A DNA stretch of 64,000 nucleotides, from NCBI RefSeq assembly GCF_019448255.1, contig NZ_CP080410.1:2666001-2730000 (forward strand), read 5' to 3'. The DNA is from Qipengyuania flava (GTDB lineage: Bacteria; Pseudomonadota; Alphaproteobacteria; Sphingomonadales; Sphingomonadaceae). A program made the position numbers and the translations under genes. The number at the start of each line of letters is the position of its first letter. Position 1 is the stretch's first letter. This document shows, in pieces, positions 837 to 32,673 of the stretch. Below the pieces are notes generated by a model. That model did no database searches and was not told the origin of the DNA. It saw only the letters and a list, made by a program, of their open reading frames with translations.

Positions 837-1340
837 ATGAGCGACGAGACGCCCGACAGCCTGATCCCTTACGATTCCATCGTGCAGGAAGCCCTGCGTG
901 CCGTGGTCGGCCGGGTATTGGGCGAAATCGAACAGGGCGGCGGCGAGCTGCCCGGCGCGCACCATTTCTACATCACTTTCAAGACCCACGCCCCGGGCGT
1001 GTCGATCCCGGCGAACCTGCGCGAGCGGTTCCCCGACGAGATGACGATCGTGCTGCAGAACAAGTTCTGGAACCTCAACGTGCGCGAGGACGGCTTTGCG
1101 GTCGGCCTGTCGTTCAACCAGGTCCCGGCAGAGCTCGACATTCCCTACGCCGCGATCACCCAGTTCGTCGATCCGGCGGTCGATTTCGGACTCCAGTTCC
1201 AGGCGACCGTGGCCGACATGGCCCCTGCCCCGACCGAACATCCCGACAACGACGGTTCGGAACAGGGCGATGAGGACGGCGTTAAAGGGGCAGACGACGG
1301 TTCGAACGTCGTGACGGTCGACTTCGGCCGCAAGAAGTAA
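837..1340 (+). CDS. sspB: ClpXP adaptor protein SspB (alphaproteobacterial type)
   Basis: A 167-aa stringent starvation protein B homologue. SspB binds ssrA-tagged proteins from stalled ribosomes and tethers them to ClpX for degradation. Residues 1-115 form the substrate-binding fold (for example HFYITFKTHAPGV and PDEMTIVLQ), followed by an acidic flexible linker and a C-terminal tail VVTVDFGRKK that fits the ClpX-docking motif. It diverges from hisB and is followed 33 bp later by a small unknown gene. Confidence 0.93.
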   Translation: MSDETPDSLIPYDSIVQEALRAVVGRVLGEIEQGGGELPGAHHFYITFKTHAPGVSIPANLRERFPDEMTIVLQNKFWNLNVREDGFAVGLSFNQVPAELDIPYAAITQFVDPAVDFGLQFQATVADMAPAPTEHPDNDGSEQGDEDGVKGADDGSNVVTVDFGRKK

Positions 1341-1373
1341 GCGCCGGGGCGTCCCGGCGAAACGGGGCAAGAC

Positions 1374-1823
1374 ATGGCAAAGCTCGGGCTGACCGACGAA
1401 GAGGCACCCAATCACCTGACCGACTGGGCCGGCGACAAGCTGGAACAGGTGACCGATGATGCCCCTGGCGAAGATGCACCGGTACCGGGTCCGAGCCCCA
1501 ATCCCGCGACCAACCTGCTCATCCACGACATTATGCTGCGCAGCGCTGGGCGCCTTTCGCGCATGGCCGTCGAAAAGGCTGTGCTCGGCCGGCAATACGG
1601 TAAGGACTTTGCAAAGGATGCGGTCGAGAACCGCTCGCTGATCCACGCGATCGCGGCCTACGGCGTCACCAAGGTAGCGACGAAATCGGTACCCGGCGCC
1701 CTGCTGGTGGGATCGGGTCTTGTGTTCAAGGTCCTGTTCGACCGCAGCCAGTCGCGCCGCAAGTCACGCGCGCAGGGCAACCGAACCCTGCGCAAGCAGG
1801 CCAAGCCCGACAGCGCAATCTGA
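1374..1823 (+). CDS. Conserved small protein of unknown function
   Basis: 149 aa, family not recognised. The N-terminal 45 residues are acidic and proline-rich; the middle (about 50-125) is helical with a hydrophobic stretch around SVPGALLVGSGLVFKVLF; the C-terminus is strongly basic (RSQSRRKSR...). This suggests a membrane-associated or nucleic-acid-contacting protein, but nothing decisive is visible. It lies between sspB and gmk on the same strand with short gaps, so co-transcription is plausible. The codon pattern matches its neighbours and supports a real gene. Confidence 0.7.
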   Translation: MAKLGLTDEEAPNHLTDWAGDKLEQVTDDAPGEDAPVPGPSPNPATNLLIHDIMLRSAGRLSRMAVEKAVLGRQYGKDFAKDAVENRSLIHAIAAYGVTKVATKSVPGALLVGSGLVFKVLFDRSQSRRKSRAQGNRTLRKQAKPDSAI

Positions 1824-1879
1824 CGGCAAGCGCGGCTGCGGGGGTTGATTTGGCCGCCCGCCTTGCGGCAACAGCGGTC

Positions 1880-29330: not shown

Positions 29331-29929
29331 ATGGCCGATCCCGTCACCATCCTCGTCGACGCCGATGCCTGCCCGGTGAAGGAGGAGATCTACCGCGTGG
29401 CCGAGCGCCACAAGGCCCATGTCCGCGTGGTCAGCAACAGCCCTTTTCGCGTACCGGTGAGCGCGCGGGTGAAGCGCGTGGTGGTAGGAGGAGGTCACGG
29501 GTCGCACAGCGACCCGCAAGGGCGACCGCCCGCCGGCCGGTTAGGCCGGAGTCGGAGCCGCAGGCGGAGACGGCACGCAGTGCCAACCCAAGCTGGGCGG
29601 ATGCCCAGCGCCCGGCGCCTGAGGGACCAAAATACGACGCGGCGGACGACTGGATTGCGGAGAACGCGGGTCCGCGCACCGTGGTGATCACCGCCGACAT
29701 CCTGCTGGCCGAACGCTGCCTGAAGGCGGGCGCGGCGGTCCTCGCGCACAACGGCAAGCCCTTCGACGCCGCCAGCATCGGCAGCGCCATCGCCACCCGC
29801 GCGATCATGGAAGACCTGCGCGCCGGGATGGACGGAGTGGGCGGCGGCCCGCCGTCGTTCACCAAGGCGGACAGGTCGCGGTTCTTGCAGGCGTTGGATC
29901 GGGTGCTGGTGAGGATGGGGCGGGGGTGA
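29331..29929 (+). pseudogene. yaiI: YaiI/YqxD (DUF188) family protein, disrupted by an insertion
   Basis: Begins as an intact DUF188 protein: [21 protein letters not shown]...[10 protein letters not shown]...KRVVV, up to codon 52. The expected next strand, [14 protein letters not shown] with [19 protein letters not shown] and GGGPPSFTKADRSRFLQAL, is present but in a different frame, from about 29624 to the stop at 29929. Between them lies about 137 extra bases, a 3n+2 length that shifts the frame. DUF188 proteins have a PIN-like fold of unclear function. The two halves are otherwise undegraded, suggesting a recent insertion. Confidence 0.85.
29487..29623. repeat. Hairpin-rich 137-bp inserted element inside yaiI
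   Basis: Five perfect stem-loops occur in a row: CGGGTCGC-ACA-GCGACCCG (29498-29516), GGGC-GACC-GCCC (29520-29531), CCGGCC-GGTTA-GGCCGG (29533-29549), GGCAC-GCA-GTGCC (29572-29584) and GCTGGGC-GGAT-GCCCAGC (29592-29609), plus GGCGCC at 29614-29619. GGA occurs at both borders (29487-29489 and 29624-29626), which could be a short target duplication. No transposase is encoded. Boundaries are inferred from where the DUF188 reading resumes. Confidence 0.7.
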
Positions 29930-29962
29930 GGAAGGTTATTGCAGCGGCGGAAGTGGGTTTGG

Positions 29963-31681
29963 CTATTTGCCGTATACCGTTGCGAGCATGCCTTCGGCCA
30001 TTCTGTTATATTGACTAGAATGAAAATCATCGAAATTAAACTCGGGAAGTTTGGCCAGATTCTTCCTGTAAAGTTCGAAGTCCCCCAAACCGTATGTGTC
30101 AACGACTTTGCGGAACAATATTATTAGGGCATTCACAGAGGTCACAGAGAGAATACCCTCCGACTTTGCAGTCTTGATTGCCCACTTCTCATTGCCCAAA
30201 ACCGCCTTCGCAGCGCCAAGAAACTGGCGTAGCTCGGTCGAACAGAAATCAACGTATTCCGTCACTGCGCCAACGTTTTTCTTCGCCTTCAACTTCGATT
30301 TGAGTTCCTCTTTTGCGTGTTGGAACAAGGACTCGTCGCCTTCAATTCGCACAAGCCGCGAGAGAGCAAAAGACACCATGGAAGAAGTTTTCAAAACTCC
30401 GGTCTCAAAATAGTTTTTCTGAAGAAGTCCCTCCAGCGCGCCGTCTCGGGCCAATCTGCCGACCACACGTTTGCCAATCGACTCGTCTGAGAACGGCTTG
30501 GTAATTACGAGGATCGCCTGCTTGAGATCCGATTTGGCCGAGTTCTGATTTGAGTTTATCTCAAGGAATATCTCCGCCTCGAACTTCTGCCTCTCTTCTT
30601 CGGACGCATCTTCAGGATAGATTATTCCGGTAGCCAACATATTCTGCCGGTCGCGGAATACCGCAATGTCGGGGTCATCGCTTACTCCTTCGAAATACGA
30701 GAAGATCCGATGTTGCCCGTCTATTATCCCAATAGAGTTTGGTCGATTGCGTAGCTTAATTACAACCGGAGTCGTTTTCTCAATGTCCGAGGGATCGACA
30801 TCTTTCCCCTTTTGGTCATCGATCCTAGTGTCGGCAGGTAGGGTTACTACAACGTTGTTGACGAACACCCTTCGCCGATCCTTCAAATACGCTCGGATAG
30901 AACGGATTTTTTTCTTATCGATCATTCGCTGGTAAAGACCCTCAGAGTCCCGCCAGCCATCCCGCCTCAATACATACGCCCGTTTGAGCAATGCAGCTGG
31001 GGTTACGTAAAAGGAGACAAGCTTGTAGCCGTCCGGATACTCAGAATGAGCTTCCGGCAACAATGACCCGGGATAGGGTTCTTCACCCTCTATCTCGCTA
31101 ATAATTCCATTCTTGCCTACTTCAGCGAGGTCAAGTTTGAGGAAGTGGAAGAGTTCATGCCTTGACGACCTCTCCACTGTGTCCGCCAAACTTCGAAAGT
31201 ATTGCATCACGCCCCGCCATGCAGTGGCAACTTCCGGGGCCAAACTGGCATGAGCGGGCTTAACTTCGTGTTCCGAAAAGTAGACGATTCTCAACCGGAG
31301 CTGAGATGAATGGTACTTCGCAGAAATCTTTGGCTTTATCGCGGCGAAACGTTCGAACAGAAACCTCAAAAATGCATTCGGGTCGTCGAGTATCTTCTTG
31401 TAGATATGAGCTTTATTTTTGAAATGTTCTCCAGTGCCGGATTCATTGCTCAAGGTGTATTCAGCCAAGACAATTAAATTTTCCGATACAAATAGATCGT
31501 CAAAATCGCTGGTACTATCTTGATACTCGAACTCTTTGTCGGCAACCTCCGGCACTCTTTCGAAGCCTGACTTCGAGAAGATCGCCCGAGCTTGGCGCTT
31601 GAACGCCCTTTCCCTCGCCCGCTTCTTCCTCTCCTCTGCGGACAGCTTCTTTTTTGCTTTTTTCTTGCCCCCCGCCGGCAT
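29963..31681 (-). CDS. DGQHR-domain protein (DndB-related), partner of a DNA methyltransferase
   Basis: 572 aa. The signature DGQHR at 321-325 sits in GIIDGQHRIFSYFEG, followed by FLEINSNQ at 372-379, as in DndB and other DGQHR proteins (TIGR03187). The N-terminus is a Lys/Arg-rich tail (1-35), then a segment resembling a degenerate PD-(D/E)xK fold: Asp61-Asp62, Glu74 in VLAEYT with Thr where Lys is expected, and Lys88/Lys90. DndB represses or tunes the phosphorothioation cluster; related proteins occur in defence islands, function mostly unknown. Base composition is visibly AT-richer than neighbours. Its ATG abuts the methyltransferase stop (TAAATG). Confidence 0.82.
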   Translation of the reverse strand: MPAGGKKKAKKKLSAEERKKRARERAFKRQARAIFSKSGFERVPEVADKEFEYQDSTSDFDDLFVSENLIVLAEYTLSNESGTGEHFKNKAHIYKKILDDPNAFLRFLFERFAAIKPKISAKYHSSQLRLRIVYFSEHEVKPAHASLAPEVATAWRGVMQYFRSLADTVERSSRHELFHFLKLDLAEVGKNGIISEIEGEEPYPGSLLPEAHSEYPDGYKLVSFYVTPAALLKRAYVLRRDGWRDSEGLYQRMIDKKKIRSIRAYLKDRRRVFVNNVVVTLPADTRIDDQKGKDVDPSDIEKTTPVVIKLRNRPNSIGIIDGQHRIFSYFEGVSDDPDIAVFRDRQNMLATGIIYPEDASEEERQKFEAEIFLEINSNQNSAKSDLKQAILVITKPFSDESIGKRVVGRLARDGALEGLLQKNYFETGVLKTSSMVSFALSRLVRIEGDESLFQHAKEELKSKLKAKKNVGAVTEYVDFCSTELRQFLGAAKAVLGNEKWAIKTAKSEGILSVTSVNALIILFRKVVDTYGLGDFELYRKNLAKLPEFNFDDFHSSQYNRMAEGMLATVYGK

Positions 31682-32647
31682 TTAATTGCCCCCCTCATTA
31701 TGCCATTCCTCTGGCACCGTAGAGACCTTTTCTCCTTGGACGGGCCGCCTTACCGATTTTCCAGAGGGCCTAACCTTAAGATCCCCTTTTTGCGCCATAG
31801 CTATTCTCTCGATCGCGCGATCACGATATGATTGCTCAAGCTCGAACCCTATTCCAATGCGGTCACGGGCAGCGGCGCAAGCAAGCGTTGTCCCCACTCC
31901 AGCAAACGGATCACAGACGACATCACCCTTATTCGTAAGTGCCATGATACACCTATCGGCAATCTCGTTCGGAAATTGGCAGGGGTGGTCGGTTTTCTCA
32001 GGGTGATTGGCTTTAACGTTAGGGATGTCCCAAACTGCTTTCTCACCGAACGCCGCTTTCGCGTCAAACTCCCAAAAGTCGGATGGGTTTTTGCCTTTCG
32101 GATTCCCACTAGGGACGTAACCGCCCTCGCTCTTCTTTCGCTTCCCTGGATAAATCTGAGGGACCCTAACTGGGTCCAAATTAAAAGTATATGAGTCGCC
32201 CTTAGTAAACCAAAGTATTGTCTCATAGCGACCCGAGAAACGACGTTTGGCGTGAAGCCCGAAGTTAAAGCGCCAAATAATTCGATTACGTAACTTGAAC
32301 CCATTCCGAATAAAAAGCTCAAAGAAGAGATAATCGAGGGGGAAAACTGAGCCGTTTTTGACGTAATTGCCAACTTGCCAGCACACGCTGCCGCTTTCCG
32401 AGATTTTTCCAGCAAGCCCTTCAATAAGGCCGCTCATCACTTCCCGATAATCGTCGAGCGTTCCGAACATCCCCTTTTCATAGCTTTTCCCGATATTGTA
32501 AGGCGGCGAGCAAAGTACCAAGCCAAGGCTTGCGTCGGGGATGCGCTTTATGAGCTTGAACGCATCGCCCTGAAAGACTTCACTTTTTTCGAGGCATAGC
32601 GGGGGCTGCAAGGAGCTAATCAGGTTCATTCTGCCAGCATTTAACAA
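31682..32647 (-). CDS. Beta-class DNA methyltransferase (site-specific)
   Basis: 321 aa. The motif order IV then I is typical of beta-class adenine-N6 or cytosine-N4 methyltransferases: SPPYN at 47-51 and the AdoMet-binding DPFAGVGTT at 246-254, with HPCQFP at 221-226. SPPY (rather than DPPY) often marks N4-cytosine enzymes, but the base cannot be fixed from sequence. Start at 32647 is favoured by GGGGA nine bases upstream. It lies 26 bp after thiC on the same strand and directly precedes the DGQHR gene. AT-rich composition suggests horizontal transfer. Confidence 0.9.
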   Translation of the reverse strand: MLNAGRMNLISSLQPPLCLEKSEVFQGDAFKLIKRIPDASLGLVLCSPPYNIGKSYEKGMFGTLDDYREVMSGLIEGLAGKISESGSVCWQVGNYVKNGSVFPLDYLFFELFIRNGFKLRNRIIWRFNFGLHAKRRFSGRYETILWFTKGDSYTFNLDPVRVPQIYPGKRKKSEGGYVPSGNPKGKNPSDFWEFDAKAAFGEKAVWDIPNVKANHPEKTDHPCQFPNEIADRCIMALTNKGDVVCDPFAGVGTTLACAAARDRIGIGFELEQSYRDRAIERIAMAQKGDLKVRPSGKSVRRPVQGEKVSTVPEEWHNEGGN

Positions 32648-32673
32648 TTTCCCCGCGGAAGCAATATCTTCGA

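Follow-up and report, generated by a model that had tools for sequence, protein, structure and literature searches.

A beta-class DNA methyltransferase paired with a DGQHR protein in Qipengyuania flava: a candidate two-gene restriction-modification system

What does a DGQHR protein do when it is encoded directly behind a DNA methyltransferase? This question is raised by a gene pair of Qipengyuania flava that lies in a stretch of 64,000 nucleotides (assembly GCF_019448255.1, contig NZ_CP080410.1, positions 2,666,001 to 2,730,000; hereafter the window). An earlier reading made from the letters of the DNA (the sequence-only reading) had described a beta-class methyltransferase followed, over a TAAATG junction, by a 572-aa DGQHR protein, and its coordinates, motifs and junction were all confirmed. 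Judging from the sequences and a modelled structure, the pair is probably a compact restriction-modification system of two genes, and its design is apparently undescribed. A search of the open-access literature, with subscription papers, preprints and REBASE outside its scope, found no methyltransferase-DGQHR pair and no such fusion.

The two proteins and their domains

The product of the first gene is, by its sequence, a DNA methyltransferase whose catalytic motifs are intact. The open reading frame (ORF; 32647..31682) comprises 321 aa from a TTG start, or 315 aa from an in-frame ATG at 32629, and motif IV (SPPYN) precedes motif I (DPFAGVGTT). The protein matched the Pfam family N6_N4_Mtase (PF01555; 8.7e-45), its best PADLOC match was MTase_II of the PADLOC type II methyltransferases (1.2e-63), and its closest relatives in the PDB were themselves methyltransferases, e.g. 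8urk (7.2e-25) and RsrI. The methyltransferase stop codon directly precedes the start of the second gene, which makes a single transcript likely.

In the second protein, hereafter the effector, a nuclease domain of the PD-(D/E)XK type is followed by a DGQHR domain with the ParB/Srx fold and by a helical C-terminal part. The structure prediction that the sequence-only reading had proposed yielded an AlphaFold model with a mean pLDDT of 91.2 and a pTM of 0.85. Residues 13-186 of the model resembled Nt.BspD6I, the R.BspD6I small subunit, Cdn1, BstEII, MspJI and McrBC in PDB fold matches, and residues 205-381 matched ParB/Noc structures. The sequence searches found no solved-structure relatives of the effector, either by single sequence or by profile (profile: E up to 1), and its first 200 residues had no match in the sequence-profile libraries scanned. 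The general DGQHR model TIGR03187 was passed with 71.5 bits (cut-off 58.85) over residues 223-526; the first 200 residues form a separate domain, on which the sequence-only reading had been silent. The relation to DndB that had been claimed stands at the level of the domain or superfamily only. The effector scored below the DndB cut-offs (PF14072, 21.5 vs 29.1 bits; TIGR04172, 23.2 vs 450 bits) and below the DpdB cut-off (NF041060, 31.9 vs 300 bits; DpdB models, 32-34 bits) and passed no Dnd-specific model at its curated cut-off, so that an assignment as DndB or DpdB proper was rejected. At E up to 1, PHROG gave no match to the effector, and no helicase model (SF2 motor of Type I, III or ISP systems) was among its Pfam matches. 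When 81 family members were scanned, PF14072 matched 65 at E up to 0.1 and PF03235 matched one, at 0.02; the Pfam scan found no recurring nuclease family in the N-domain, AbiJ_NTD4 appearing in 1/81 at 0.1. The predicted PD-(D/E)XK-type and ParB/DGQHR NTPase-type domains give a physical footing to the earlier suggestion that this protein may restrict DNA lacking the mark or react to it.

Conservation was read from an effector alignment of 87 rows, which omits four short ORFs (L030, L056, L068, L079) and includes the near-duplicates L022/L098, L037/L099 and L004/L104; among L009-L013 and L098-L104 the same prophages were fetched twice. D61, N68, E74 and H86 were invariant in all 87 sequences, as were the DGQHR motif and R343. 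With hhalign, the N-domain aligned to the N-domain of longer DGQHR relatives (96%, E 3.3e-9), D61 falling on the D and E74 on the E of their E/QCK motif. The N-domains of these longer relatives gave weak matches to nucleases of the Card1, NERD, HsdR_N and Hjc families, with a best value of 4.8e-5 that stays under the curated cut-offs.

Table 1. Features of the methyltransferase-effector locus (window positions)
Feature	Position	Strand	Basis
DNA methyltransferase gene, beta class	31682..32647	minus	ORF, motifs, Pfam and PADLOC matches
DGQHR effector gene, 572 aa	29963..31681	minus	ORF, TIGR03187, AlphaFold model, PDB matches per domain
PD-(D/E)XK-type domain region (residues 13-186; D61, N68, E74-x-T76, H86, K90)	31124..31645	minus	
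ParB/Noc NTPase-like fold region (residues 205-381; DGQHR = residues 321-325)	30539..31069	minus	
TAA-ATG junction, methyltransferase stop directly before effector start	31679..31684	minus	read in sequence

Pairing with the methyltransferase and exchange of partners

The family was collected with an alignment of DGQHR proteins, and 80 loci (L018-L097), the best 80 of 85 relatives on genome contigs, were examined. Since the search used the DGQHR protein alone, it had no bias towards loci with an adjacent methyltransferase. An ORF matching a methyltransferase profile nevertheless lay within 100 nt of the effector in 76 of the 80 loci, and the pair is thus conserved together elsewhere. The methyltransferase was upstream on the same strand in 71 of the 76, downstream on the opposite strand in 4 and downstream on the same strand in 1. 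In 36 the genes overlapped or abutted and in 38 more they were within 30 nt of each other (together 74/76), while only 5 further methyltransferase-profile ORFs were found farther off in 1.25 Mb of family loci. The methyltransferase was likewise paired in 7 viral-contig loci, 2 plasmid records and 1 phage record. Two other groups of DGQHR proteins served as controls: a methyltransferase-profile ORF was present at 0/7 loci of DGQHR-only proteins (323-424 aa) and at 0/5 loci where the DGQHR protein is longer (633-798 aa). The control loci were 13 regions of 15 matching genomes other than the own genome and G235, with G402 and G099 left out; L144 (G942) is probably the same record as L026, and in L139 and L148 the contig breaks off, which makes these two controls one-sided. 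A chance neighbourhood was rejected on the basis of the 76/80 pairing and the methyltransferase-free controls. A third conserved component was also rejected, as the commonest cluster of neighbours occurred in 5 of 85 loci. The pairing is obligate-looking, and the genes are inherited together across phyla. The effector was split beside an intact methyltransferase in 3/80 loci and the reverse was seen in one; a split effector beside an intact methyltransferase is what restriction-modification predicts, and these numbers are too small to weigh.

By record title the family loci belong to Pseudomonadota, Bacteroidota, Bacillota, Planctomycetota, Nitrospirota, Thermodesulfobacteriota, candidate phyla and one Nanoarchaeota metagenome-assembled genome. 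The family also occurs in 7 viral-contig loci, 5 of which were returned by two alignment searches, on two rhizobial plasmids and in one Akkermansia phage; a single-sequence search of viral contigs returned no close effector relatives, whereas the alignment search did find some. Within the samples around the host the full-length family is sparse: it was present in 1/60 genomes of the genus, in 2/296 of the order sample (the second of them truncated where its contig stops) and in 2/398 of the phylum sample, where the other matches were partial, and among 385 genomes of the class sample in the own genome only. The DGQHR protein is single-copy in this genome.

To follow the partners, the methyltransferases were sorted by motif and length into four types of our own definition (38, 28, 10 and 3 of 79). 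An effector tree was built by a quick method with SH-aLRT support only, leaving out 10 of 87 loci: the four short ORFs named above, L021 and L052, in which the methyltransferase ORF is split or cut, and L040, L041, L080 and L087, which lack a methyltransferase close by. Two copies, L098 and L099, were removed next, and L038, L039 and L104 were additionally left out of the Mantel test. On this tree the type labels required 10 changes, where 3 is the minimum possible and shuffled labels gave a mean of 33.9 (0/200 as low). With the well-supported branches alone, each type taken singly still needed at least 7, 2, 4 and 3 changes, respectively. Inside each of the two large types, distances between effectors were correlated with those between methyltransferases (Mantel r 0.73, n=26; r 0.86, n=37; 0/999 permutations as high). 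The few label changes and the co-variation within types indicate that an effector keeps some methyltransferase, mostly inherited and occasionally of another kind.

Several loci showed features of their own. In three Bacteroidota loci (L040, 4423-9728; L042; L069) the pair was accompanied by a 549-aa and a 300-aa protein; the 549-aa companion looks by eye like a GHKL-type ATPase, and in L040 both companions sit between the methyltransferase and the effector. In the temperate Akkermansia phage Chantilly (L004, 1519-4625) the two genes are convergent with overlapping ends and lie beside an integrase. In the PLSDB resistance track the Phyllobacterium DGQHR gene (L002, 7857-9683) is labelled lmrP, an efflux pump, apparently in error.

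A proposed mark-controlled nuclease and its alternatives

The nearest comparison is with DndI and SspE, in which a ParB-like DUF262 NTPase with a DGQQR motif is combined with an HNH nickase and phosphorothioate is sensed; here and below, published work is cited from excerpts of the papers. In common with these proteins, the effector has a ParB/Srx-type NTPase domain with DGQ[HQ]R fused to a nuclease and is paired with a DNA-marking enzyme (PMC11662687). In contrast to them, a single enzyme is predicted to set the mark, by methylation, the nuclease belongs to the PD-(D/E)XK type and is N-terminal, and models of GmrSD_N (PF03235, DUF262) and HNH (PF07510) did not match the window effector at E up to 1. 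A ParB/Srx NTPase joined to a nuclease is also found in the Type IV enzyme GmrSD (DUF262 and HNH; PMC4619093). GmrSD acts on modified DNA, whereas the effector is encoded next to a cognate methyltransferase and has a different nuclease fold. DndB (phosphorothioate) and DpdB (deazaguanine) have the DGQHR domain in common with the effector, but their models (PF14072, TIGR04172, NF041060) were missed at their cut-offs and the nuclease domain is extra. With Type II restriction-modification systems that have a separate beta-class methyltransferase, the pair shares the two-gene layout of a methyltransferase and a PD-(D/E)XK partner; it differs in the ParB-fold NTPase-type domain of that partner and in the threonine at the position of the catalytic lysine. 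The longer DGQHR proteins (L143, L145, L146, L147 and L148) have the same domain order and an N-domain whose profile aligns, but carry the canonical E/QCK motif in a PD-(D/E)XK-type N-domain and a longer C-terminus with weak Swt1-HEPN-like matches in two (L146, L147), and no methyltransferase lies nearby. They are possibly stand-alone defence proteins.

In the mechanism that we propose, the methyltransferase would mark a sequence on host DNA and protect self, and the effector would bind DNA via its ParB-like and helical parts, its N-terminal domain cutting or nicking DNA without the mark. The DGQHR domain would probably bind and hydrolyse NTP and act as a switch, the effector being released or disarmed on marked self DNA, following a DndI-like logic (PMC11662687, PMC4619093, PMC12704722). 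In DndI the phosphorothioate mark stimulates the DGQQR ATPase and thereby frees the nuclease from self DNA, and the R of the motif is required for ATP hydrolysis (PMC11662687); a comparison of DGQQR with DGQHR has been published (PMC4619093). If restriction-modification holds, an NTP-gated step is somewhat likely. The fullest form of the proposal is that a methyl mark governs an NTPase switch of ParB/Srx fold, joined in one protein to a PD-(D/E)XK nuclease whose catalytic lysine has moved (E-x-T, H86-x3-K90), that this is a widespread and undescribed class, and that its specificity comes partly from the paired beta-class methyltransferase, allowing partner swaps. We advance it tentatively and rather doubt that it holds in every part.

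Three observations weigh against a restriction-modification system of this kind. D61 and E74 are present in 87/87 sequences, but T76 replaces the catalytic lysine of the (D/E)-x-K motif in 86/87; K90 is present in 86/87. Four loci (L040, L041, L080 and L087) are without an adjacent methyltransferase, two other genes intervening in L040, and in L021 the methyltransferase is in two frames beside an intact effector. The missing lysine speaks for the possibility that the N-domain is catalytically dead and that the effector is a DndB-like regulator or a DNA-binding partner limiting or targeting methylation, so that the pair would act in modification or as an epigenetic switch. DndB itself has been reported as a regulator of phosphorothioation (PMC4507180, PMC10853773). 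D61, E74, N68 and H86 would hardly persist in 87/87 sequences across phyla if the domain were dead, however, and DGQHR-only proteins are not found beside methyltransferases (0/7); this explanation seems quite improbable to us.

An ordinary Type II system would explain the two genes with a separate beta-class methyltransferase, the PD-(D/E)XK domain resembling Nt/R.BspD6I and BstEII, and the co-variation of effector and methyltransferase within types. The ParB-like and helical parts would then recognise the site and dimerise, no NTP would be used and the methyl group would block binding. Against this, the strict conservation of DGQHR and R343 (87/87), together with the requirement for the arginine of the like motif in ATP hydrolysis by DndI (PMC11662687), suggests nucleotide use, and an effector that did not recognise the whole site by itself could more readily re-pair with other methyltransferase types. 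We regard an ordinary Type II system as unlikely. Little credence is given to a modification-dependent (Type IV-like) or mark-activated effector, in which the partner's mark would switch the nuclease on or foreign marks would be attacked, prophage copies excluding other phages. SspE, which is activated by the phosphorothioate mark (PMC11662687), provides a precedent, and the presence of the family on viral contigs and in one Akkermansia phage is consistent with it, but cutting the partner's own mark would make the pair suicidal, and an attack on foreign marks needs no partner, yet 76/80 loci have one.

The thiC-yaiI site and the meaning of the pair

The pair is AT-richer than its neighbours, as the sequence-only reading had noted: GC is 0.47-0.53 inside it, in windows of 500 bases, against 0.59-0.73 in those fully outside it (24-40 kb). 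The same reading had placed it between thiC and yaiI, and both were identified, the latter as a fragment. Upstream lies thiC, a gene of vitamin synthesis whose product matched NCBIfam NF006763 with 1038 bits (cut-off 650), and downstream a YaiI/YqxD fragment (NF001095, 68 bits, below the cut-off of 139). The yaiI gene (29331-29929) is interrupted, with its halves read in different frames, and contains an insert of ~150 bases (about 29486-29634) that is absent from yaiI of all 12 relatives with the gene in the fetched stretch. No Dnd genes adjoin the pair, as judged from the ORF list alone, no scan of the window with Dnd profiles having been made.

A query with the 3'-end of thiC matched 57 of 60 genus genomes, and the downstream stretch was fetched in 20 of the 57, mostly the most similar ones. 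The yaiI gene lay 2.1-4.4 kb downstream of thiC in 12/20, with a partial match at the stretch end in one more, and the space between was filled by different low-GC genes across relatives (L105-L124; window counterpart 29930-32673). From 14 of these loci 20 cargo proteins were compared with Pfam, 10 of them also with PADLOC, and defence, toxin-antitoxin or modification families were matched in 9/14 loci: a dGTPase (L105), DarT with NADAR (L108), AIPR/AbiU (L109), GmrSD (L112), a methyltransferase (L113), Fic (L114, L117), PDC-S19 (L118) and PDC-M41 (L119). Less clear were a weak HATPase (L110) and DUF5343 (L121), and no Pfam family matched the cargo of L111, L115 and L120. Repeated fragments of the thiC 3'-end were present in 5/20 relatives and yaiI fragments in 4/20, as if inserts had come and gone. 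The thiC-yaiI interval is thus a variable site in the genus with often defence-like cargo, which supports the suggestion that the pair sits in an acquired island. None of the 20 fetched relatives carried the methyltransferase-DGQHR pair at this site. In G235, of another genus of the same family, thiC is followed by a methyltransferase of 64.5% identity and then by an effector start of 68.7% identity that runs to the contig end; in L021, another Sphingomonas, the pair adjoins yaiI. The L111 cargo includes a 312-aa protein (924-1862, minus strand) that bears GGQHR, has no Pfam match at E up to 0.001 and, by its sequence, is possibly another ParB-fold protein. PMC10121019 held no whole-word matches for thiC, DGQHR or DndB.

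In this genus, further defence genes may be worth seeking in the thiC-yaiI interval. If the proposed function is true, the family would join the mark-sensing NTPase nucleases, so far known for phosphorothioate (DndI, SspE), with methylation-based restriction. It would also provide a two-gene test case, small enough for biochemistry, for a ParB-type NTP switch that discriminates marked from unmarked DNA, and would account for many genes labelled only 'DGQHR domain-containing protein'.
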